The position numbers were made by a program, and so were the translations under genes. The notes beneath the pieces are model-generated. The model worked only from the letters and a program-made list of their open reading frames with translations, was not told the DNA's origin and searched no databases. DNA of 23,948 nt from a virus, in IMG/VR virus record IMGVR_UViG_3300025828_000195, positions 1 to 23,948 of that record. One strand, given 5' to 3'. Of the stretch, positions 3 to 11,833 are shown piece by piece (the stretch's first letter is position 1; each line of letters begins with the position of its first letter).

Positions 3-746
3 TCTGAATTAGGTAAGACTATTGGTGATGCAAAGATGGGTATTGTGTTTCACACTACCTACACAGGTGGAACGATTGAAGATTTAAGTGCATCCTTTGG
101 TGCAAACATTTCTAGTTTAGGACACAGCAGAGATGTTTGGATTGATGATGCAAAGTATAAAGATGAATCAGGTAGTTCATCTATGACTGCAAAAGAAAGT
201 GTTGAACTTACAAAAGTATTAACTGACGTAGGAAAACAGTTTCATCTGATTAAAAAGAAAGACTTAGATACTTTTAGAAAAATACAAGACACTGTTGCTG
301 CAAAGTCAGCTGCAGGTGCATCATACAAGACATACACTAATGGATTAATTAGAGGTAATAGTTTTAAACCTACCTACGAAGGATATATTACACACTTTGA
401 AAGTTATTGGACTGATAAAGTAGTTGGTAAAGTAAAACAAGAAAAAACAAAACAGATGAAGAGAGAGATTGGTGAACAAGTATTAAGAGAACTCAGAAGT
501 TTGAAGAACTTTCTAATTGCACTCACCAAGTTTCAAGAGAAGATTGTAGAGGCAAAGAGTATTATTATAAACTCTCTAAATAGAATAAAGTCAATCGGAA
601 CTTTTGTAGAAACAGATAAAGGATTGAAAGCAGTAAATCCTGAAGGATATGTTTGCATAGACATTAATGGTAAGGCTGTCAAGTTTGTTGACAGATTAGA
701 ATTTAGTCAGAATAACTTTACTGCAACAAAGAACTGGAGTAAATAG
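3..746 (+). CDS. conserved phage protein, DUF6267-like, 5'-truncated
   Basis: The reading frame is open from the first full codon at position 3 to a TAG at 744-746, so the true start lies upstream of the window. The ATG at 36 sits inside the conserved stretch (SELGK..., then GIVFHTTYTG) and is not a credible start. That stretch matches my memory of the C-terminal half of a protein common in T4-like marine phages (DUF6267). Its biochemical role is unknown. The middle part is lysine-rich and helical (roughly 90-150 residues after position 36), without a signal peptide or membrane segment. The stop codon overlaps the GTG of the next gene (TAGTG), which suggests translational coupling. I am sure the gene is real, and moderately sure of the family. 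Confidence 0.8.
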   Translation, partial: SELGKTIGDAKMGIVFHTTYTGGTIEDLSASFGANISSLGHSRDVWIDDAKYKDESGSSSMTAKESVELTKVLTDVGKQFHLIKKKDLDTFRKIQDTVAAKSAAGASYKTYTNGLIRGNSFKPTYEGYITHFESYWTDKVVGKVKQEKTKQMKREIGEQVLRELRSLKNFLIALTKFQEKIVEAKSIIINSLNRIKSIGTFVETDKGLKAVNPEGYVCIDINGKAVKFVDRLEFSQNNFTATKNWSK

Positions 747-1123
747 TGAAATCTTTTAGAGACTTTTTAGAAGAACAAGAACTTAATGAAGTAGATTCAC
801 TTGCAACTCGTATGAAGAAACGAGCTGCATTTCGTAAGAACAAAGGAAAGATTCTTATGAAAAGAAAACGTGCAATGAAAAAGGCACAGATGAATCCTGA
901 AAAGTTAAAAACGAAAGCTGAAAAACAAGCACGAAATATTCTAATTAAGAAAATATTAAAGGATAAGTCTAAGTCAGACTTATCGTTAGGTGCAAAAGCA
1001 GAATTAGAAAAACGATTAGAAAAGAAAAAGGCATTCATTCAAAAACTTGCAAAAAGAATTCTACCATCTGTTAAAGCAAAAGAACTAAAAAAGACACAAA
1101 AGAAAGATGAAGGTGAAGAGTAG
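746..1123 (+). CDS. small basic protein with capsid-targeting-like N-terminus
   Basis: This is a 125-residue, very Lys/Arg-rich protein that starts with GTG in a TAGTG overlap with the previous gene and ends in another TAGTG overlap with the next. The N-terminus, MKSFRDFLEE, closely resembles the first ten residues of T4 internal proteins (MKTYQEFIAE), which target them into the prohead and are cut off by the gp21 protease. A gp21-like site (Leu-x-Glu) lies within the first 15 residues (FLE, then LNE). The rest is a highly basic helical region (about 20-120), which would suit a DNA-binding internal head protein. Function is inferred from this N-terminus and composition only; no enzyme motif is visible. 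Confidence 0.75.
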   Translation: MKSFRDFLEEQELNEVDSLATRMKKRAAFRKNKGKILMKRKRAMKKAQMNPEKLKTKAEKQARNILIKKILKDKSKSDLSLGAKAELEKRLEKKKAFIQKLAKRILPSVKAKELKKTQKKDEGEE

Positions 1124-2610
1124 TGAAATCATTTAAACAATTTTTAGAAGAAGAGTTTGCATTACCAAAGTATCCTATGCAAACAAATATCAAGTTTAAA
1201 AGAGATGACTGGGTAGTGGGTGACCCCACAAAAGCATTCGAATACGACACTTCAAAAGATGGTTATGAAAACATGGATAAAATGGATGACATGGTAGACC
1301 AAGACCGAGAGAAAATGAAAAGAAAAAGAAACAGTTTTGAAAATTTAACCGAGGCAAAAGGTAAAGGTGTAGTATTTACCTTTGGAAGATTCAATCCACC
1401 TACCACAGGACATGCAAAACTTGTAGATAAACTTACAAAGGCATCCAGTGGTGGTTATCAACCTCTATTGTTTACTTCACATTCAAATGACCCTGTAAAG
1501 AATCCTTTATCTTACAAAGACAAAATCAAATACCTCAAGAAGTTTTTCAAAAATGTGACTGTCGTAGAAACACCTGCACGTCAGATTTTTGAAATACTTA
1601 CTTACCTCTATGATAAGAAATACACCAACATTCGTATGGTCGTAGGTTCAGACAGAGTTAAAGAGTTCGAAAACATTATCACCAAATACAACAATGTAAA
1701 AGGTAGACACGGTTTCTACAATTTTGCAGAGATTACAATTATCTCAGCAGGTGAACGTGACCCTGATGCAGATGATGTATCAGGAATGAGTGCATCTAAA
1801 ATGAGAATGTTTGCAGAGAAGGGTGACTTCGAATCATTTAAAGAAGGTGTTCCTACTAAAAACAAATCAGATGCAGAGGGTTTATATAAAGCAATTCGTA
1901 AGGGAATGAAACTCATAGAGAACGAACTTCCCGACTATATGATTGAAGACCTCATACAAGAGGGTGTTTATGACCCAGGCATATTCAAAGCAGTATTCCT
2001 TATGGGTGGGCCAGGTAGTGGTAAGTCCACTGTGGTCGATAAACTAAACCTTAAAGCACTTGGTCTTAAACTAGTCAATACAGATAAAGCATTTGAAGTT
2101 GGTCTAAAGAAAGCAGGGATGACACTTGACCTTAGAGGTGCAGACTTTAGTAAAGTAGACCCTATCCGTGCAAAAGCAAAACAGATTACTGGAAAGAATA
2201 TGGATAACTATATTGAAGGTAGACTTGGATTAATCTTTGATACCACAGCTGCAAAGAAAGAAAAGATTGTCACATATAAAAATATGTTAGATGCACTTGG
2301 ATATGAATATAAGATGGTATATGTAAACACATCATTAGAATTTGCACAAGAACGAAATGCAGAGAGAGCTCGTAAACTACCACCTGAAATTGTTCAATCA
2401 GATTGGAATGCAGCTCAAAAAAATGCAAATGATTTTAAAAGGTTATTTGGTAAAGATTTTGTTGAAATTAAAAACGATGATACTAAAAAAGCATTAGAAC
2501 AAAAATCATCTGCACTCTACGGTAAGATGTTAACATGGACATCTAAGTTTCCATCTAATAAACTTGCATCTAAATGGAGAGAAATAGAACTCCTTAAAAA
2601 GAAAGGATAA
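1123..2610 (+). CDS. nucleotidyltransferase / P-loop kinase fusion with capsid-targeting-like N-terminus
   Basis: This 495-residue protein starts with GTG (TAGTG overlap). Residues 1-10 (MKSFKQFLEE) repeat the capsid-targeting-like start of the preceding gene. Residues 82-230 form a nucleotidyltransferase of the NMN adenylyltransferase/cytidylyltransferase superfamily: GRFNPPTTGH at 88-97, VGSDR at 174-178 and SGMSASKMR at 220-228. Residues 288-480 form a P-loop kinase domain (Walker A GGPGSGKST at 295-303), similar to zeta-toxin or polynucleotide-kinase-like folds. Matches to the T4 prohead-protease consensus (Leu/Ile-x-Glu before Ala/Gly) fall before each domain: LTE|A at 77/78 and IQE|G at 280/281. 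Substrates are unknown; NAD metabolism or RNA/nucleotide processing are both possible. Confidence 0.85.
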   Translation: MKSFKQFLEEEFALPKYPMQTNIKFKRDDWVVGDPTKAFEYDTSKDGYENMDKMDDMVDQDREKMKRKRNSFENLTEAKGKGVVFTFGRFNPPTTGHAKLVDKLTKASSGGYQPLLFTSHSNDPVKNPLSYKDKIKYLKKFFKNVTVVETPARQIFEILTYLYDKKYTNIRMVVGSDRVKEFENIITKYNNVKGRHGFYNFAEITIISAGERDPDADDVSGMSASKMRMFAEKGDFESFKEGVPTKNKSDAEGLYKAIRKGMKLIENELPDYMIEDLIQEGVYDPGIFKAVFLMGGPGSGKSTVVDKLNLKALGLKLVNTDKAFEVGLKKAGMTLDLRGADFSKVDPIRAKAKQITGKNMDNYIEGRLGLIFDTTAAKKEKIVTYKNMLDALGYEYKMVYVNTSLEFAQERNAERARKLPPEIVQSDWNAAQKNANDFKRLFGKDFVEIKNDDTKKALEQKSSALYGKMLTWTSKFPSNKLASKWREIELLKKKG

Positions 2611-2618: not shown

Positions 2619-3917
2619 ATGTTAAATATGATTTTAGAAAAATTTAAAAAAGCTGCAAGACAGGATAAAGACATCGAAGATAGAGATGGAACTCAACCTG
2701 CAAAATACTATGGTAAGGATGCAGAGGGAGACGAAATGTCTAAGTCTACTAAACAAGACCGTGCAAGACACTTTGAGAAAGGTGCAGAGAAGGACGATAA
2801 CGACTCTTCTGCATACAAACCTGCACCAGGCGATGCAACTGCAAAGACTAAACCTTCACAACACACTAAGAAATTTAAAAAGATGTTTGGAGAAGATGCA
2901 CAGGCAGCTGCCAAACTCAAAGCAAAACAGGCAGATGAACTAGAAAGACTTAAAGACAAACAGACAGATGAGTTAGAAGCACTCAAAGATAGACACGAGA
3001 GACAAAACGAAACTCAAAAAGATAAAGACACTACTGAAAAGGAAAACGAGACTCTTCAAAAACAAAGAGATGCAGAAAGAAAAGCTGCAGAGAAAGAAAG
3101 AGAAAAGGCAATGGAGTCTCTCTTAGATACACTTGATACACTACCCGATGCAGAAGACTCTACACACTTAAGTGAGTTAGAGGAAGGAGATGCAGATAAA
3201 TCACTTGAAAGTAAAGCATCGAAGTCAGGAATTGCAGTTGGTATTCTAAAACAAGTGTATAAGAGAGGAGTAGCTGCATGGAGAACAGGTCATAGGCCTG
3301 GGACTACCCCTGAACAGTGGGGACATGCAAGAGTTAATTCCTTTATCACAGGGGGTAAGACAAGAACCACTGCTGATGCAGACCTATGGAAACAACACTC
3401 AGGTAAAAAAGAAGAAGTCACAGAAAAAAGACTTGCAGATAGACAAAGAGAAAAAACTAAGTCTCAACAAAAGGCACATCAAAAAGCAATGATGAAGTCT
3501 GCAAGAGACTCTATTAAGAAATATCAAAAGGGTAAAAAAGAAGAGACTGAAGTCGAAGAAGAAAGAGATTACAAAAAAGAGTATGCAAACTACCATTCTC
3601 AACCTGAACAAATCAAAAGACGTGCAAAGAGAAATGAAGCACGTAGGTTAATGAAGAACAACAAAGATATTAAGGGAAAGGACGTTCATCATAAAGATAA
3701 CAATCCTATGAATAACGATAAGTCTAATCTATCAATAGTAACACAGAAATTCAACAGAACAGAACCAAGACTCAGAACAGAAGTTTTGGATAAATCAGCA
3801 ACTCAACAAGACTACATTGATGATTTCCTGAAGTCAGATGCACCTCAATTTAAAGGTAAGACAAAGGATAAGATTATTAAGATGGCAGTTGCAGCTTACA
3901 ACGAGAGGAACAAATAA
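2619..3917 (+). CDS. coiled-coil + DUF5824-like + HNH-motif fusion protein
   Basis: This 432-residue, highly charged protein has three parts. Residues 95-165 are a long Glu/Lys/Gln coiled coil. Residues 203-258 (GIAVGILKQVYKRG, then AWRTGHRPGTTPEQWGHARV) match a conserved module I recall from many marine phages (DUF5824-like). Residues 325-385 carry an HNH-type motif (HHKDNNPMNNDKSNL at 357-371) preceded by a basic helix (YHSQPEQIKRR), a pairing common in phage proteins. A prohead-protease-like site (LEE|G, 189/190) separates the coiled coil from the DUF module. The start is either ATG 2619 or ATG 2628; I chose 2619 because it lies where a late transcript would begin. It could be a packaged nuclease or a structural protein. 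The function is not proven. Confidence 0.75.
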   Translation: MLNMILEKFKKAARQDKDIEDRDGTQPAKYYGKDAEGDEMSKSTKQDRARHFEKGAEKDDNDSSAYKPAPGDATAKTKPSQHTKKFKKMFGEDAQAAAKLKAKQADELERLKDKQTDELEALKDRHERQNETQKDKDTTEKENETLQKQRDAERKAAEKEREKAMESLLDTLDTLPDAEDSTHLSELEEGDADKSLESKASKSGIAVGILKQVYKRGVAAWRTGHRPGTTPEQWGHARVNSFITGGKTRTTADADLWKQHSGKKEEVTEKRLADRQREKTKSQQKAHQKAMMKSARDSIKKYQKGKKEETEVEEERDYKKEYANYHSQPEQIKRRAKRNEARRLMKNNKDIKGKDVHHKDNNPMNNDKSNLSIVTQKFNRTEPRLRTEVLDKSATQQDYIDDFLKSDAPQFKGKTKDKIIKMAVAAYNERNK

Positions 3918-4146: not shown

Positions 4147-4989
4147 ATGGCACAATATAGCAAGTATACCAACGCATATCTACCACAACAAACTACTAAT
4201 CACGAAGTAGTGATGTTATCAGACCAAGATGGTAATATTATTAACTCATTCGCTGCAGCTTCTAATATTGTTATCTCTGCCGGAGATTTGACAGGTTACT
4301 CTGCTATCAACAAATTTGGAAGAAATCCAAATGTTGGTGGTGCGCCAGAAACAATTTGGATGTATGGTGGAAGGTATGTATATCTTACATCACCATCTAC
4401 TGTTTATGCCCATAGTGCAGATACAGAAGATAGTGTCAGTGGAACAGGTGCGAGAACAGTCACTATTCAAGGACTAGATGTAAACTATGAATCCATAGAA
4501 GAAACAGTTACAGTAAGTTCAGGTGTTGCATCAACTGCCCAATTTTTAAGAGTATTTCGTGCTTTTGTTGCTACTGCTGGTTCAACTGGAACTAACGAAG
4601 AAAATATTACAATTTCTACTGGTGCTGCTGGAGCAGGAACAGTTCTTGCAGACATTGGAACAATTGGAACTGGAACAACTTATGGTCTAGGACAAACACA
4701 ACTTGCTCTTTATACTATCCCAGCACATTGCACAGGGTATTTAACATCATGGAATATTGGTGTTGGTTCTTATAATGACTCTGTGACAGTATCCTTACTG
4801 TCAAGAGAATTCAATTCTGCTTTCAGAACAAGAGATATTATGGATGTGCCAGGCGGTTCTCATGTAAGAAGTTATTCAGTTCCTATTAGATTACCAGCAA
4901 AAACTGATGTTGAAATAATTGGGATTGCTTCTACAGGAACAAATATATCTTCTTCATTTGACATTATTTTAGTGGATAATACAGCATAA
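4147..4989 (+). CDS. beta-rich virion structural protein (putative)
   Basis: This 280-residue protein is rich in Thr, Ser, Gly, Ala and Val with very few Lys, unlike its Lys-rich neighbours, and fits an all-beta extracellular or virion-surface protein. It contains YSAINKFGRNPNV (about 51-63), GTGARTVTIQGLD (about 99-111), a small-residue stretch TGAAGAGTV, and ALYTIPAHCTGYLT (about 189-202). I recall this arrangement in structural or tail-associated proteins of marine podo- and myophages. It lacks enzyme motifs and a signal peptide. A role as a head decoration, tail fibre or adhesin subunit is inferred. Its stop overlaps the start of the next gene (TAATG). Confidence 0.7.
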   Translation: MAQYSKYTNAYLPQQTTNHEVVMLSDQDGNIINSFAAASNIVISAGDLTGYSAINKFGRNPNVGGAPETIWMYGGRYVYLTSPSTVYAHSADTEDSVSGTGARTVTIQGLDVNYESIEETVTVSSGVASTAQFLRVFRAFVATAGSTGTNEENITISTGAAGAGTVLADIGTIGTGTTYGLGQTQLALYTIPAHCTGYLTSWNIGVGSYNDSVTVSLLSREFNSAFRTRDIMDVPGGSHVRSYSVPIRLPAKTDVEIIGIASTGTNISSSFDIILVDNTA

Positions 4990-5522
4990 TGAAAACATTT
5001 CATCAAATCACAATCAACGAAACACTTGATACACTCCAACAGGAGAAAACAAACCTATTAGACAATCCGTTTAGACTAGGTTCTATGATGTATTTCGAGA
5101 CCATCAAAGAAGCACGTAGATTAGTTGCAGAAGGTCGATACACACTTACTGAAGTAGACAAACAAATACTTGAAACAGATATCGGTGAGTTTGAAGTGTA
5201 TGAGGGAGAGATTGTCCCACTTGATTGTCCAATGATAATGGAAGAAAAAGATGTTGAACTGAACAAACCTAAAGTGGGTGGTTCAAAGAAATACTATGTA
5301 TATGTTAAAGACCCATCAACAGGTAATATCAAAAAAGTTTCTTGGGGAGACACAACAGGTCTCAAAGTTAAAATAAGTGACCCCGAAGCACGAAAGAGTT
5401 TTGCAGCTCGTCACAAATGTGACCAACAGAAGGATAAAACAAAAGCATCCTACTGGGCATGTAGACTTCCTTATTATGCTAAGCAATTAGGACTATCGGG
5501 TGGTGGGAGCTTTTACTGGTGA
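4989..5522 (+). CDS. conserved phage protein, DUF5872-like
   Basis: This is a 177-residue protein. The C-terminal half (about 97-177) is a module found, as I remember, in many marine phages: KKYYVYVKDPSTGNIKKVSWGDTTGL, then ISDPEARKSFAARHKCD, KASYWACRLPYY and a GGGSFYW end (DUF5872). The N-terminal half has a second conserved patch (FRLGSMMYFETIKEARRL). Two Cys and two His in the C-terminal module (RHKCD, WACR) might bind metal, but no classical zinc motif is present. Its biochemical role is unknown. The N-terminus MKTFHQITINE weakly echoes the capsid-targeting-like starts of nearby genes. It starts at the TAATG overlap with the structural gene before it. Confidence 0.75.
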   Translation: MKTFHQITINETLDTLQQEKTNLLDNPFRLGSMMYFETIKEARRLVAEGRYTLTEVDKQILETDIGEFEVYEGEIVPLDCPMIMEEKDVELNKPKVGGSKKYYVYVKDPSTGNIKKVSWGDTTGLKVKISDPEARKSFAARHKCDQQKDKTKASYWACRLPYYAKQLGLSGGGSFYW

Positions 5523-6927: not shown

Positions 6928-8060
6928 TGAATATCTTTCAAGAAGCAAAACAAGTATTAGACAAAGACGGTAAAGTAAATCCACTTGGCCCATACGGTAA
7001 GTCAAAACTTACTGGGTCTGAGGTTGCTTCTTATTTTAGAAAACATCCTGTCAAAGACCCTAAAGTTAAAAAGGCAGTAGAGGTTGCATTAGACTTAGAA
7101 GGTGCATTTGATGTTGCAATGAAAGCAATCAAAGACTTCTACGGAGACAAGATTCTAAAGTCAAAAGAAGTGCAAACTGCACTTAGATTTGCAAACGAAG
7201 AAGTAGAAGTAATCGGTGAAAACTACAGAACACTTGCACAAAAAGGAATGGGAACAGAGTCCGAAAAGGATGCAAGGGTTGGTCTTGAGTTAGACTTTTA
7301 TGATTCACAGGGTAACAAACAATTTGGTAAGATTGTAAAGAAAGATAGAAAAGGTTACACTGTTAAAGATGAGAAAGGGAAAACCCACACTTTTATGTTC
7401 CTAGACAGACAAAAGGCAAAGAAACTTTTAACAAAGGAAGACACACAACTTGGTGAAGCAATGAAAATAAAAGATATCTTCAGGAAACACAAAAGAGAAA
7501 TTACAAAAGCATACAAAACGGGTGATTTATCATTCTCATCATCTGCTGGTAAGAAAGCAGAAGACGATTTAATGCAGTGGGCAATGAACAATGGTGAAGT
7601 CAAGAGTGATGACCCCGATGACTTTTTTGACTGGTTGTCTCGTGACCTTGAAGATATAGTTAAAGGTAAAATCAGAGAAGCAGTATCACCTGCTCAACAA
7701 GCTGCAATCGCAATTGCAAAGAAAGAGAAAGAAGAGAAGAACGAATCAGTATTCAACTCTTATAGAAGAATGGTTGAAATGTGGTTAGACGAAGAAGTTG
7801 CAAACATCACAGTTGACCCTAAAAACAGAATACCAACACCTGCTGGTCAAAACAAACACTCATTAGAAATTGTAAAACAAGCAAGAAGATTTGGTATCAA
7901 AGCATCACAATTAGGTAAACACATAAGAATTAAAGGTAATAAGAAGGCAGTTAATGACTTCTTAAGAATGGTTATCGGTAGGTCATCATATGGTGACCCA
8001 ACAGAAAAGGACACATCAACACCTCAGATTGACAAGATGTTGACTAAAGGTTTGAAGTAA
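6927..8060 (+). CDS. multi-segment hypothetical protein, possibly processed head protein
   Basis: This 377-residue protein has at least three segments separated by prohead-protease-like motifs. Residues 1-177 include a small beta-rich part (VGLELDFYDSQGNKQFGKIVKKDRKGY..., about 118-165, Tudor/SH3-like in appearance). LGE|A at 177/178 precedes a helical segment (MKIKDIFRKHKREITKAYKTG...). IRE|A at 251/252 precedes a Glu/Lys-rich linker and a C-terminal domain (about 290-377), where residues 300-350 resemble a small nucleic-acid-binding KH-like fold (KQARRFGIKASQLGKHIRIKG). No catalytic motif is visible. Its stop overlaps the next gene (TAATG). The domain readings are weak; I do not recognise the family. 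Confidence 0.7.
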   Translation: MNIFQEAKQVLDKDGKVNPLGPYGKSKLTGSEVASYFRKHPVKDPKVKKAVEVALDLEGAFDVAMKAIKDFYGDKILKSKEVQTALRFANEEVEVIGENYRTLAQKGMGTESEKDARVGLELDFYDSQGNKQFGKIVKKDRKGYTVKDEKGKTHTFMFLDRQKAKKLLTKEDTQLGEAMKIKDIFRKHKREITKAYKTGDLSFSSSAGKKAEDDLMQWAMNNGEVKSDDPDDFFDWLSRDLEDIVKGKIREAVSPAQQAAIAIAKKEKEEKNESVFNSYRRMVEMWLDEEVANITVDPKNRIPTPAGQNKHSLEIVKQARRFGIKASQLGKHIRIKGNKKAVNDFLRMVIGRSSYGDPTEKDTSTPQIDKMLTKGLK

Positions 8061-8377
8061 TGTCTAAAGACTTGTTCGAAACATACAGAGATATGCATCA
8101 ACTAGATGAGAAACTAGGATTTAATGGTTCGTATCAAAGAAAAAGTAAGTATGATGGTAAAGAGTTTGATAGAAATAAAGAAATCAAACAAATTGCAAAA
8201 ATCAAAAAGACATTAGAACAAGCAGATAAACTACATTCAGACTTGCAGTATCCTAATACAGTAGATACAGTCTCAAAAGTTTGGGATAAGATAAACGATG
8301 CATACATAGGTCTTATTAACTATGAAGAACAAGTTAAGAAGGGTGAGTATGACGGAGAAATCGACACAGATTCGTAA
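8060..8377 (+). CDS. hypothetical protein
   Basis: This 105-residue, helical, charged protein (MSKDLFETYRDMHQLDEKLGF...) starts at a TAATG overlap with the preceding gene. It contains a Lys-rich stretch (KEIKQIAKIKKTLEQADKL) and an acidic end (EYDGEIDTDS). No motif or membrane segment is visible, and I do not recognise it. It overlaps or abuts the next gene, depending on which start is used there. Confidence 0.65.
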   Translation: MSKDLFETYRDMHQLDEKLGFNGSYQRKSKYDGKEFDRNKEIKQIAKIKKTLEQADKLHSDLQYPNTVDTVSKVWDKINDAYIGLINYEEQVKKGEYDGEIDTDS

Positions 8378-9469: not shown

Positions 9470-9883
9470 ATGAAAAAGTTTAAAGAATTTTTTAAAGAAA
9501 ATGTAGGAGTGTTCCAAACTTCAGGTTTATCATCTGAACATATCCCACATGATATAGATGACCCACAAGTTGTTTCAGCAGTAAATGCTGTTCTAGGACA
9601 CGCTGCTACCTCAGAATTCTTAAACCCTAAAGCTGCCATTGCACAGATGGAAGCAAAACTTTCACTGTTAGGTTTAGAGTTAGATCATAGTGCAGTTGAA
9701 TTTGATGGTTTAAGTGAAGAAGGCAGTTTTGATATCCCTATGAAAAGATATGGGGACATCATGGGCAAATCAGTCGATACACCTATAGATGAAATTGAAC
9801 ATGAAGAAAGAGCATATAACCTTTCTATTCGTTTCGAAAAACTAGATACTGGAACTTACAAAGTTTACGGTTCACTTGATTAA
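9470..9883 (+). CDS. hypothetical protein with capsid-targeting-like N-terminus
   Basis: This 137-residue protein has AAGGAAA as a ribosome-binding site 5 bases upstream of the ATG. Its first ten residues, MKKFKEFFKE, resemble the T4 internal-protein targeting sequence and the starts of the genes at 746 and 1123. The rest is acidic: VVSAVNAVLGHAATSEFLNPKAAIAQMEAKLSLLGLEL forms likely helices, and the C-terminal part (YNLSIRFEKLDTGTYKVYG) likely strands. No motif gives a function. It is the last gene before a clear intrinsic terminator. Confidence 0.65.
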   Translation: MKKFKEFFKENVGVFQTSGLSSEHIPHDIDDPQVVSAVNAVLGHAATSEFLNPKAAIAQMEAKLSLLGLELDHSAVEFDGLSEEGSFDIPMKRYGDIMGKSVDTPIDEIEHEERAYNLSIRFEKLDTGTYKVYGSLD

Positions 9884-10491: not shown

Positions 10492-11085
10492 ATGAAAATA
10501 GTCGACACCCTTATAGTCTTCCGTATCCTCAAGTTGTTAACTACACCTTGGGAAAAACAAGCTGCATATAAGTTTGGATTTATCGATAAAGAAGGTAAGA
10601 GAATCAAAACAAAACCAAGAGAGGACAATCCTAATCTATTTGTTCCTAATGACCCTTCTACATCTGAAGAAAAGTCATCTATGACACTACTCCATAGATT
10701 GGTATTCAATCTCAAGAGACTCATCAATAAAGTTCCTTTCGGTAAGACTGCATTTGCATCATACGCTGTTGCACTTGCACTTCTTAAGGAAGAAGCAAAG
10801 ATAGATGCAAATCAGATGGAAGAACTTTGTGAAAAGTTCTATCGTCATTTAAAAGACAATGAATTAATGAAACCTGAACATATCACTGAAGTGGTGGAAA
10901 TGTCTAAACTCTCTATTGGAGAAAAATACAGACTTAGACGTTCAGTAGAACAGGGGGATGTATACTTCCAAGCAAAGAGTTCATTAGAGGTGGTTGCAGA
11001 ACATAGTAAAATTTTCGGTGTTCCACTCTATGTTGGTTTCATCGATGACAAAAGAATATTGGTAACTTCAGATGATGTTTATTGA
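10492..11085 (+). CDS. conserved T4-like phage hypothetical protein
   Basis: This 197-residue protein begins MKIVDTLIVFRILKLLTTPWEKQAAYKFG and continues with SMTLLHRLVFNLKRLINKVPFGKTAFASYAVALALLKEE. The pattern matches a family I remember as conserved in T4-like marine phages, with no assigned function. The N-terminal 20 residues are hydrophobic and amphipathic but contain charged residues and do not look like a signal peptide. The C-terminal part (VAEHSKIFGVPLYVGFIDDKRILVTSDD) is alpha/beta. It overlaps the PAP2 gene by 14 bases. A late-promoter box places the RNA start at its ATG. Confidence 0.75.
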   Translation: MKIVDTLIVFRILKLLTTPWEKQAAYKFGFIDKEGKRIKTKPREDNPNLFVPNDPSTSEEKSSMTLLHRLVFNLKRLINKVPFGKTAFASYAVALALLKEEAKIDANQMEELCEKFYRHLKDNELMKPEHITEVVEMSKLSIGEKYRLRRSVEQGDVYFQAKSSLEVVAEHSKIFGVPLYVGFIDDKRILVTSDDVY

Positions 11086-11833
11086 AGCAATACAAAATAT
11101 CAATGCACTAGTTTTTGATAAAAATCCACCTAAGAAGTTTGAAAAAGATGAAGCAGACCGTTTGTTTGATGATGGTTGGATGCAGATGGATGTCCCACCA
11201 CCACCTAAAAATGATTCTCGTCAGACACTAAACGAACTAGAAGAAATGAAAAACAGACGAGAAATGTTGTCTGATTTTGATAAGAAAGTGTATATCAACA
11301 CAGATGAAGATACTAGTTACTACATCAAAGAATACTTAGAAGAACAAGATTTAGACTATAGTGAGGACGAAATAGAAGACCTCAGAAAAAGTGTAAGACA
11401 TATTGGTAGGTATTACAAAAACAAATTTAACAGACCTAGACCTTTTCAACTTGCAAAGGAATTAGGAATCAATCTAAAGGATGAGAAATTTGAAACAGTA
11501 GACTCTCCGTCTTATCCTTCAAATCATGCACTACAAGCTAGAACAGTTGCAAACTTTTATGGAGAGAAATATCCTGAACATAAGAAATACCTTCTTAGAG
11601 CTGCAGATATGAGTGCAGAAGGTAGAATTAATGCAGGAGTCCATTTTCCCTCAGATAAGATATCTGCATATATGATTGCAGATACCGTAATGGAGTTTTT
11701 GAAGGATGATGTAAATGAGGATGCACCAGTGAATGCAACAGGAGCTGCAGTTTCTACTAATGTTCCTATTGTGAAGAGAAAGAAAATGCACACACCTAAT
11801 CTTGTGTTTGGAATGCTTTCTCGTAAAAAATAA
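11072..11833 (+). CDS. PAP2-family phosphatase-like protein
   Basis: This 253-residue protein has the three motifs of PAP2/acid phosphatase-haloperoxidase enzymes in order: K-x6-RP (K116 to R123-P124), PSNH at 149-152 (usual form PSGH) and R185-x5-H191-x3-D195 (usual SR-x5-H-x3-D, with the Ser replaced by Gly). These would form the phosphohistidine active site. Unlike typical lipid phosphatases it has no transmembrane helices, so it is likely soluble. The first 100 residues are an acidic extension not seen in minimal family members. Substrate may be a phosphorylated lipid head group, nucleotide or other phosphomonoester. The start is ATG 11072 or 11075; both overlap the previous gene. Confidence 0.8.
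   Translation: MMFIEAIQNINALVFDKNPPKKFEKDEADRLFDDGWMQMDVPPPPKNDSRQTLNELEEMKNRREMLSDFDKKVYINTDEDTSYYIKEYLEEQDLDYSEDEIEDLRKSVRHIGRYYKNKFNRPRPFQLAKELGINLKDEKFETVDSPSYPSNHALQARTVANFYGEKYPEHKKYLLRAADMSAEGRINAGVHFPSDKISAYMIADTVMEFLKDDVNEDAPVNATGAAVSTNVPIVKRKKMHTPNLVFGMLSRKK

Follow-up and report, generated by a model that had tools for sequence, protein, structure and literature searches.

A candidate head-targeted enzyme polyprotein with putative prohead-protease sites at its domain borders in a relative of the Kyanoviridae

Packaged phage proteins and multidomain enzymes

The internal proteins of phage T4 (IPI-III) are single small proteins that carry a capsid-targeting start (CTS) of the form MKxF/YxxF[L/I]xE and undergo one N-terminal cut. 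Mutagenesis of IPIII has demonstrated that residues 4 and 7 mainly target the capsid, with residues 8 and 10 involved in processing (PMC9026906). The cut motifs of T4 include IAE/A in IPIII, ITE/A in IPI and LTE/A in gp23, the slash marking the cut. In cyanophages, a protein described as a cytidylyltransferase or as NMNAT-like (T4-GC190; phrog_395, phrog_3041), which often bears a CTS, has been detected in the virions of S-SM1 (PMC3037559), S-SCSM1 (PMC9602691), S-SZBM1 (PMC9146016) and S-CREM2 (PMC10665884), although carry-over of abundant proteins is possible according to the authors of the virion proteomics (PMC9602691, PMC10665884). No CTS or cut-site analysis of this protein was found in the passages of these proteomics papers that were examined.

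Other systems combine several activities in one chain or several cuts in one injected protein. Polyvalent proteins of phages and conjugative elements contain several enzymatic domains in a single injected polypeptide which is split by proteolysis, with a built-in metallopeptidase proposed for the task (PMC5512222). The ejection proteins of phiKZ and SPN3US are injected head proteins cut after a short x-x-E motif, and their long propeptides are cut at several places (PMC5694885, PMC10052503). NadR joins a nucleotidyltransferase (NMNAT) and a P-loop kinase (ribosylnicotinamide kinase) in that order (PMC9503650).

The locus described here lies in IMG/VR virus record IMGVR_UViG_3300025828_000195, of which a stretch of 23,948 nucleotides was analysed as a whole (the window), and encodes a fusion protein that resembles each of these systems in part. 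It shares residues 4, 7, 8 and 10 of the CTS and the L/I-x-E motif before alanine with T4, and several CTS genes are adjacent in the window, but enzymes are joined within one protein and the motif recurs at internal borders. Its NMNAT-like domain is about 45% identical to the cyanophage virion protein, whereas the S-SCSM1 and S-CREM2 virion NMNATs have no P-loop kinase in the part of the sequences examined. Unlike in polyvalent proteins, the sites fit the phage’s own prohead protease, and Pfam and PHROG identify no peptidase domain in the fusion protein. The cuts in phiKZ and SPN3US remove propeptides or the protease C-terminus and do not yield separate enzymes. The fusion protein has the domain order of NadR, but its kinase is AAA_33/zeta/PNK-like and not of the NadR kinase family. 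Taken together, the protein is probably a head-targeted enzyme polyprotein cut by the prohead protease, derived from fused CTS-tagged genes and representing a variant of the T4 internal-protein system.

The fusion gene, its product and its neighbours

The coordinates of the gene, its domains and its nearest neighbours are collected in Table 1. The product opens with MKSFKQFLEEEF, and F4, F7, L8 and E10 of its CTS correspond to Y4, F7, I8 and E10 of T4 IPIII (MKTYQEFIAE), so that both the targeting and the processing residues of a CTS-tagged internal protein are present. AlphaFold (91-row alignment; mean pLDDT 86, pTM 0.51) predicts two compact domains with pLDDT >90, the low-confidence stretches being residues 13-44, 73-77 (pLDDT <50) and the block 271-280 (mean 55). 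The motif [LI]xE[AGS] occurs only twice in the 495 residues, as LTE/A (77/78) and IQE/G (280/281), and both occurrences fall in low-pLDDT stretches between folded domains. Each has the form of a gp21-type substrate, with L/I-x-E before a small residue in a stretch predicted to be exposed and flexible. Shuffled versions of the protein contain a mean of 0.76 such matches, and both border windows of about 23 residues were matched in 0.09% of them.

Table 1. Coordinates of the fusion gene, its parts and the adjacent genes within the window
Feature	Position	Strand	Remarks
DUF6267 protein	36..746	+	match to the family confined to its C-terminal part
Very basic Lys/Arg-rich protein, 125 aa, CTS MKSFRDFLEE/Q	746..1123	+	directly upstream; like T4 basic internal proteins
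Fusion gene: CTS, leader, NMNAT-like domain, P-loop kinase	1123..2610	+	GTG start, 495 aa
CTS, residues 1-10, MKSFKQFLEE	1123..1152	+	possible cut LEE/E at 10/11
Leader, residues 11-77, partly disordered	1153..1353	+	separate gene of 66-73 aa in L012, L013, L014, L028
AGA codon in place of the upstream gene’s TGA stop in L028/L014/L013	1321..1323	+	stop lost, net +1 nt downstream
Putative prohead-protease site LTE/A, residues 75-78	1345..1356	+	cut after nt 1353; corresponds to the downstream-gene CTS end (FLTE/A) in relatives
NMNAT-like (HIGH-type) nucleotidyltransferase domain	1366..1908	+	about residues 82-262 (to 270 by Pfam/PHROG)
Putative prohead-protease site IQE/G, residues 278-281	1954..1965	+	cut after nt 1962; corresponds to the stand-alone kinase CTS end
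P-loop kinase domain, PNK/zeta/PSTK-like	1963..2607	+	residues 281-495; Walker A GGPGSGKS at 295-302
DUF5824 + HNH-like protein	2619..3917	+	LEE/G before the DUF5824 domain

The same full-length protein, identical or nearly so, is encoded on five further IMG/VR contigs (L005-L009) and in part on L025. Misassembly of the fusion is unlikely, as the same fused frame is found in other IMG/VR contigs, two of them differing at one C-terminal residue. The closest annotated relatives belong to the Kyanoviridae and include Pelagibacter phage HTVC008M, the Methylophilales phages Melnitz, phage C48C1 and many cyanophages. A first-pass annotation of this DNA had claimed the MKSFKQFLEE start as a T4-type CTS, a nucleotidyltransferase and a P-loop kinase domain, and the two sites just before each domain; the start and the domains were confirmed by ORF translation, Pfam and PHROG, the match to IPIII supports the CTS, and both sites stand where they were placed.

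The nucleotidyltransferase is matched by Pfam CTP_transf_like at residues 86-189 (25.6 bits, cutoff 21) and by PHROG 3041 (E 1e-60) and PHROG 395 (E 2e-47). It harbors the HIGH-type motif GxFxPxxxGH as GRFNPPTTGH (residues 88-97) and a predicted Rossmann-like fold, with Foldseek matches to PPAT and NadM; a search for PDB sequence relatives of the NMNAT profile gave no close one. For the kinase, the Pfam models AAA_33 (residues 291-430) and Zeta_toxin (residues 289-456) each exceed their cutoff; it also has profile matches to zeta toxin and PSTK, and matches T4 PNK and bacterial PNK in Foldseek (TM-score to target 0.69-0.72). Profiles and models are consistent with putative NMNAT/PPAT-like and PNK/zeta/PSTK-like activities, respectively. 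Identity with NadR was rejected (TIGR01526 at 25.6 bits against a cutoff of 341; kinase AAA_28 at 14.5 bits, under cutoff), and PADLOC returned no defence-system match for the fusion protein. HTVC008M, the closest isolate, which also has an NMNAT-like gene, encodes a genuine NAD synthase (gp161, L035:30412-31170; PF02540, E 1e-50), making a NAD role for the NMNAT-like enzyme possible rather than proven.

Relatives preserve what appears to be the state before fusion. In four contigs of about 70% identity (L012, L013, L014 and L028) the leader is a gene of its own, encoding 66-73 residues (MKSFKQFLEEEYALPKY...KMK-stop), and the downstream gene starts in an ATGA overlap with MKKTFGKFLTE/AKDKG or MKKFNTFMRE/AKDKG. 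The change of TGA to AGA together with a net gain of one nucleotide downstream results in the in-frame fusion seen in the window. Closer relatives begin the gene directly with a CTS, MKTFESFLKE/AKGKG in L010 (~95% identity) and MKTFQSFLKE/ATGKG in L011 (~90%). Since relatives have separate CTS genes and the stop has been lost, the first site, LTE/A, is where the CTS of the downstream gene used to end. Comparison of these sequences indicates that a small CTS gene and the CTS gene following it were recently fused to give the gene of the window, an origin missed by the earlier reading.

The surrounding genes contain further starts of this kind. A relative of the 125-residue basic protein in C48C1 begins MLSFKQFVSE..., and the DUF6267 family has a CTS in some relatives, for example MLDFKNFITE/Q in C48C1. 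Short proteins at 4989-5522, 8060-8377 and 9470-9883 have the CTS-like starts MKTFHQITINE, MSKDLFETYRDMHQLDE and MKKFKEFFKE. A stand-alone gene at 11072-11833 belongs, like the PAP2 module of L098 (below), to the PAP2 family and has no clear CTS. The additional CTS-like proteins suggest that the window may contain a whole head-targeted cluster.

Domain borders across related proteins

Across 192 related proteins, [LI]xE[AGS] was rarer than expected in domain cores (14 seen, 77 expected, 57,813 aa) and commoner outside them (197 seen, 40 expected, 26,945 aa). The controls displayed no such split, with 128 seen against 114 expected in cores and 47 against 40 outside for [LI]xD[AGS], and 226 against 186 and 92 against 69, respectively, for [LI]xK[AGS]. 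In the junction survey all kinase borders carried a site, N-terminal (32/32) and internal (32/32) alike. The corresponding counts were 38/66 (shuffles 4.2) and 20/31 (shuffles 3.3) for NMNAT, 12/19 and 5/7 (shuffle 0.3) for the Pol-beta-type NTase, and 3/5 and 4/4 for the QGKK domain. As the domain families behind all these counts are few and share ancestry, the figures do not amount to phylogenetically independent trials. The strict motif is absent at the border in some CTS-bearing NMNATs (FNE/A, FKE/N, and LLRKK in HTVC008M). In the long fusions L149 and L155 it lies close to or inside PAP2, making the border-site rule a statistical one.

The most extensive example is a protein of 1,182 residues (L098:1108-4656) with the order kinase-PAP2-NTase (Pol-beta-type)-NMNAT. 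Five [LI]xE[AGS] sites, at 11, 227, 429, 713 and 1162, are distributed so that one precedes each enzyme domain and the last is near the C-terminus. Other orders include kinase-DUF6267 (L177) and NMNAT-DUF-kinase-DUF5824 (L185). Alignment of diverged homologues of the window protein likewise shows L/I-x-E kept at both borders, while P2 and the linkers vary. Multi-enzyme fusion with border sites appears, from these sequences, to be general in marine T4-like phages.

The kinase border allows fused and stand-alone forms to be compared. Stand-alone kinases begin with MKTFAELQE/GVYDP in Melnitz and MIPFILKE/GLYDP in HTVC008M, and occur in many environmental contigs, e.g. MLNFKDFLTE/GVNDP and MKQFKQIIQE/GVYDP. 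All 24 non-redundant examples have L or I at P3 (12 each), E at P1 and G at P1', of which only P3, together with P2, is free of selection bias as the search query began at P1. The entropy of P2 is 2.6 bits, and everything upstream varies except P3 and P1. IQE/G of the window matches the position of this CTS end, and 36/36 non-redundant fused kinases retain [LIV]xE/G. The layout extends beyond the Kyanoviridae, given that Agrobacterium jumbo phage Atu_ph07 encodes a protein of 778 residues (L216:748-3084) which starts MKWNDLNE/A and contains the kinase after SEVTE/GVND. A search of genome contigs for cellular kinases found only six loci, in environmental MAGs, and these are probably phage-derived.

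The same border provides the grounds for supposing that the protein is packaged but remains uncut between its enzymes, its first 10 or 77 residues being trimmed and the NMNAT-kinase staying bifunctional, with IQE/G as part of linker or kinase structure. In all fused kinases a conserved PxYMxEDL segment (1930-1953 in the window) directly precedes [LI]xE/G; it may serve as a helix that recruits the protease or the core, or as a structural cap, and its conservation exceeds the needs of a bare cut site. Furthermore, six NMNAT-kinase fusions (L015, L016, L026, L027, L062 and L063) have no CTS and open directly with the NMNAT domain (MKKVTFTFGRFN or MKEVSFTFGRFN), yet keep ITE/G. Packaging by a CTS is consequently not universal for this fusion, and the second site may be a structural element; these six are the main counter-evidence, left unexplained by a pure protease-site reading. 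Bifunctional proteins of a nucleotidyltransferase and a P-loop kinase are also known, NadR (PMC9503650) and ATP sulfurylase-APS kinase, the latter with a match to 2gks. We nevertheless regard persistence of the uncut form as unlikely, for 24 stand-alone kinases have [LI]xE/G at their N-terminus with little but the CTS before it, and with P2 free. Distant kinases that have lost GVYDP still keep the CTS, MKKFSEFIKLEE/K (LEE/K) in Aeromonas phage 65 and MNFKEFCQLDE/A in Cronobacter phage S13, which together with the free P2 also weakens the view of the second site as a purely structural kinase feature. Finally, the varying domain order (NMNAT-kinase, kinase-PAP2-NTase-NMNAT, kinase-DUF6267) does not suggest obligate coupling.

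The NMNAT borders bear on whether the sites are merely undecayed CTS remnants in linkers, scars of fusion devoid of function in what would be an ordinary cytoplasmic metabolic enzyme. The recent age of the window fusion, with separate genes in relatives, and the fusions without an N-terminal CTS agree with such an origin. N-terminal NMNAT relatives start MKxFxxFLxE/A, with an aromatic at CTS position 4 in 27/37 and at position 7 in 30/37. At the 20 internal NMNAT junctions, chosen for having a site (as 20 of the 31 internal borders do), aromatics are found at these positions in only 0/20 and 2/20, and P3 and P1 are kept across diverged sequences; the internal site of the window, ...NSFENLTE/A, has no aromatic at either position. 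Scars would lose all of these residues equally, domain cores are depleted of the motif, and several groups report homologues in virions, rendering this reading quite improbable. That ribosomes also use the in-frame ATG at 1315-1317 (MKRKRNSFENLTE/A), 4 nt from the ancestral start and reminiscent of the internal start of T4 gene 21, such that the NMNAT-kinase is made apart from the leader and the fusion matters little, is barely credible, as the N-terminus it would give has no aromatics where the CTS of T4 IPIII has its targeting residues, and should target poorly.

Proposed processing in the head and its implications

A gp21-type protease (PF03420) is encoded by HTVC008M and by 6/12 relative contigs, most of them fragments, and two of the contigs with PF03420 also encode the fusion (G001/L086 and G008/L018); none was identified in the window, itself a 24-kb fragment. 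Capsid proteins of fusion-bearing contigs (L204, L205) have AVLSE/AAP and ATLSE/AAP where T4 gp23 has FLTE/AEI. Other relatives have FLSE/A, FMAE/A, MLFE/A or FLGE/I, and S-CREM2 has LLTE/A, all of these capsid sites being placed by comparison with T4. The first-pass proposal, in which the fusion would be packed in the prohead, cut into two enzymes and injected to act on host NAD, nucleotides or RNA, is partly supported, by the CTS, by the border sites kept in diverged homologues, and by the presence of both the protease and capsid sites of the same type in relatives. Among the virion-detected NMNATs, that of S-SCSM1 starts MKSFLQFLKE/AAE and that of S-CREM2 MKNFSSFLTE/ADE, and several neighbours of the S-SCSM1 gene are also labelled virion proteins. 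A search of the open-access literature found no report that describes cut sites at domain borders or places this kinase in virions.

From this evidence we infer packaging, cleavage and delivery of the window protein. By analogy with T4, the N-terminal CTS would bring the polyprotein into the prohead core. During head maturation a gp21-type protease would cut after LEE (10), LTE (77) and IQE (280). A short piece of the leader would thus be released, and the NMNAT-like nucleotidyltransferase (78-280) and the P-loop kinase (281-495) would become separate proteins. The freed enzymes would be delivered with the DNA and, as infection begins, may act in nucleotide/NAD or RNA-end metabolism. In evolutionary terms, ancestral genes each possessing their own CTS would have fused, after which the internal CTSs would have lost their targeting residues, with only the cut motif (P3 L/I, P1 E) staying under selection.

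A wider proposal, to which we incline with somewhat more reserve, is that marine T4-like phages, meaning the Kyanoviridae and their relatives, produce modular polyproteins of virion enzymes. CTS-tagged kinase, PAP2, Pol-beta-type NTase, NMNAT and other domains would be fused in changing orders, with border sites selected in linkers and excluded from domains. A single CTS would in this way load several enzymes, to be split during head maturation into separate injected ones. If true, the protease of head maturation would also process polyproteins, as happens in many eukaryotic viruses, and a CTS at the start with L/I-x-E at the borders would predict the injected proteins of marine T4-like phages and their cuts. 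It would also help to explain the recurrent NMNAT-like enzymes in cyanophage virions, offer clues to the function of many conserved hypothetical genes in abundant ocean phages, and suggest how one tag could bring several separate enzymes into T4-type heads.
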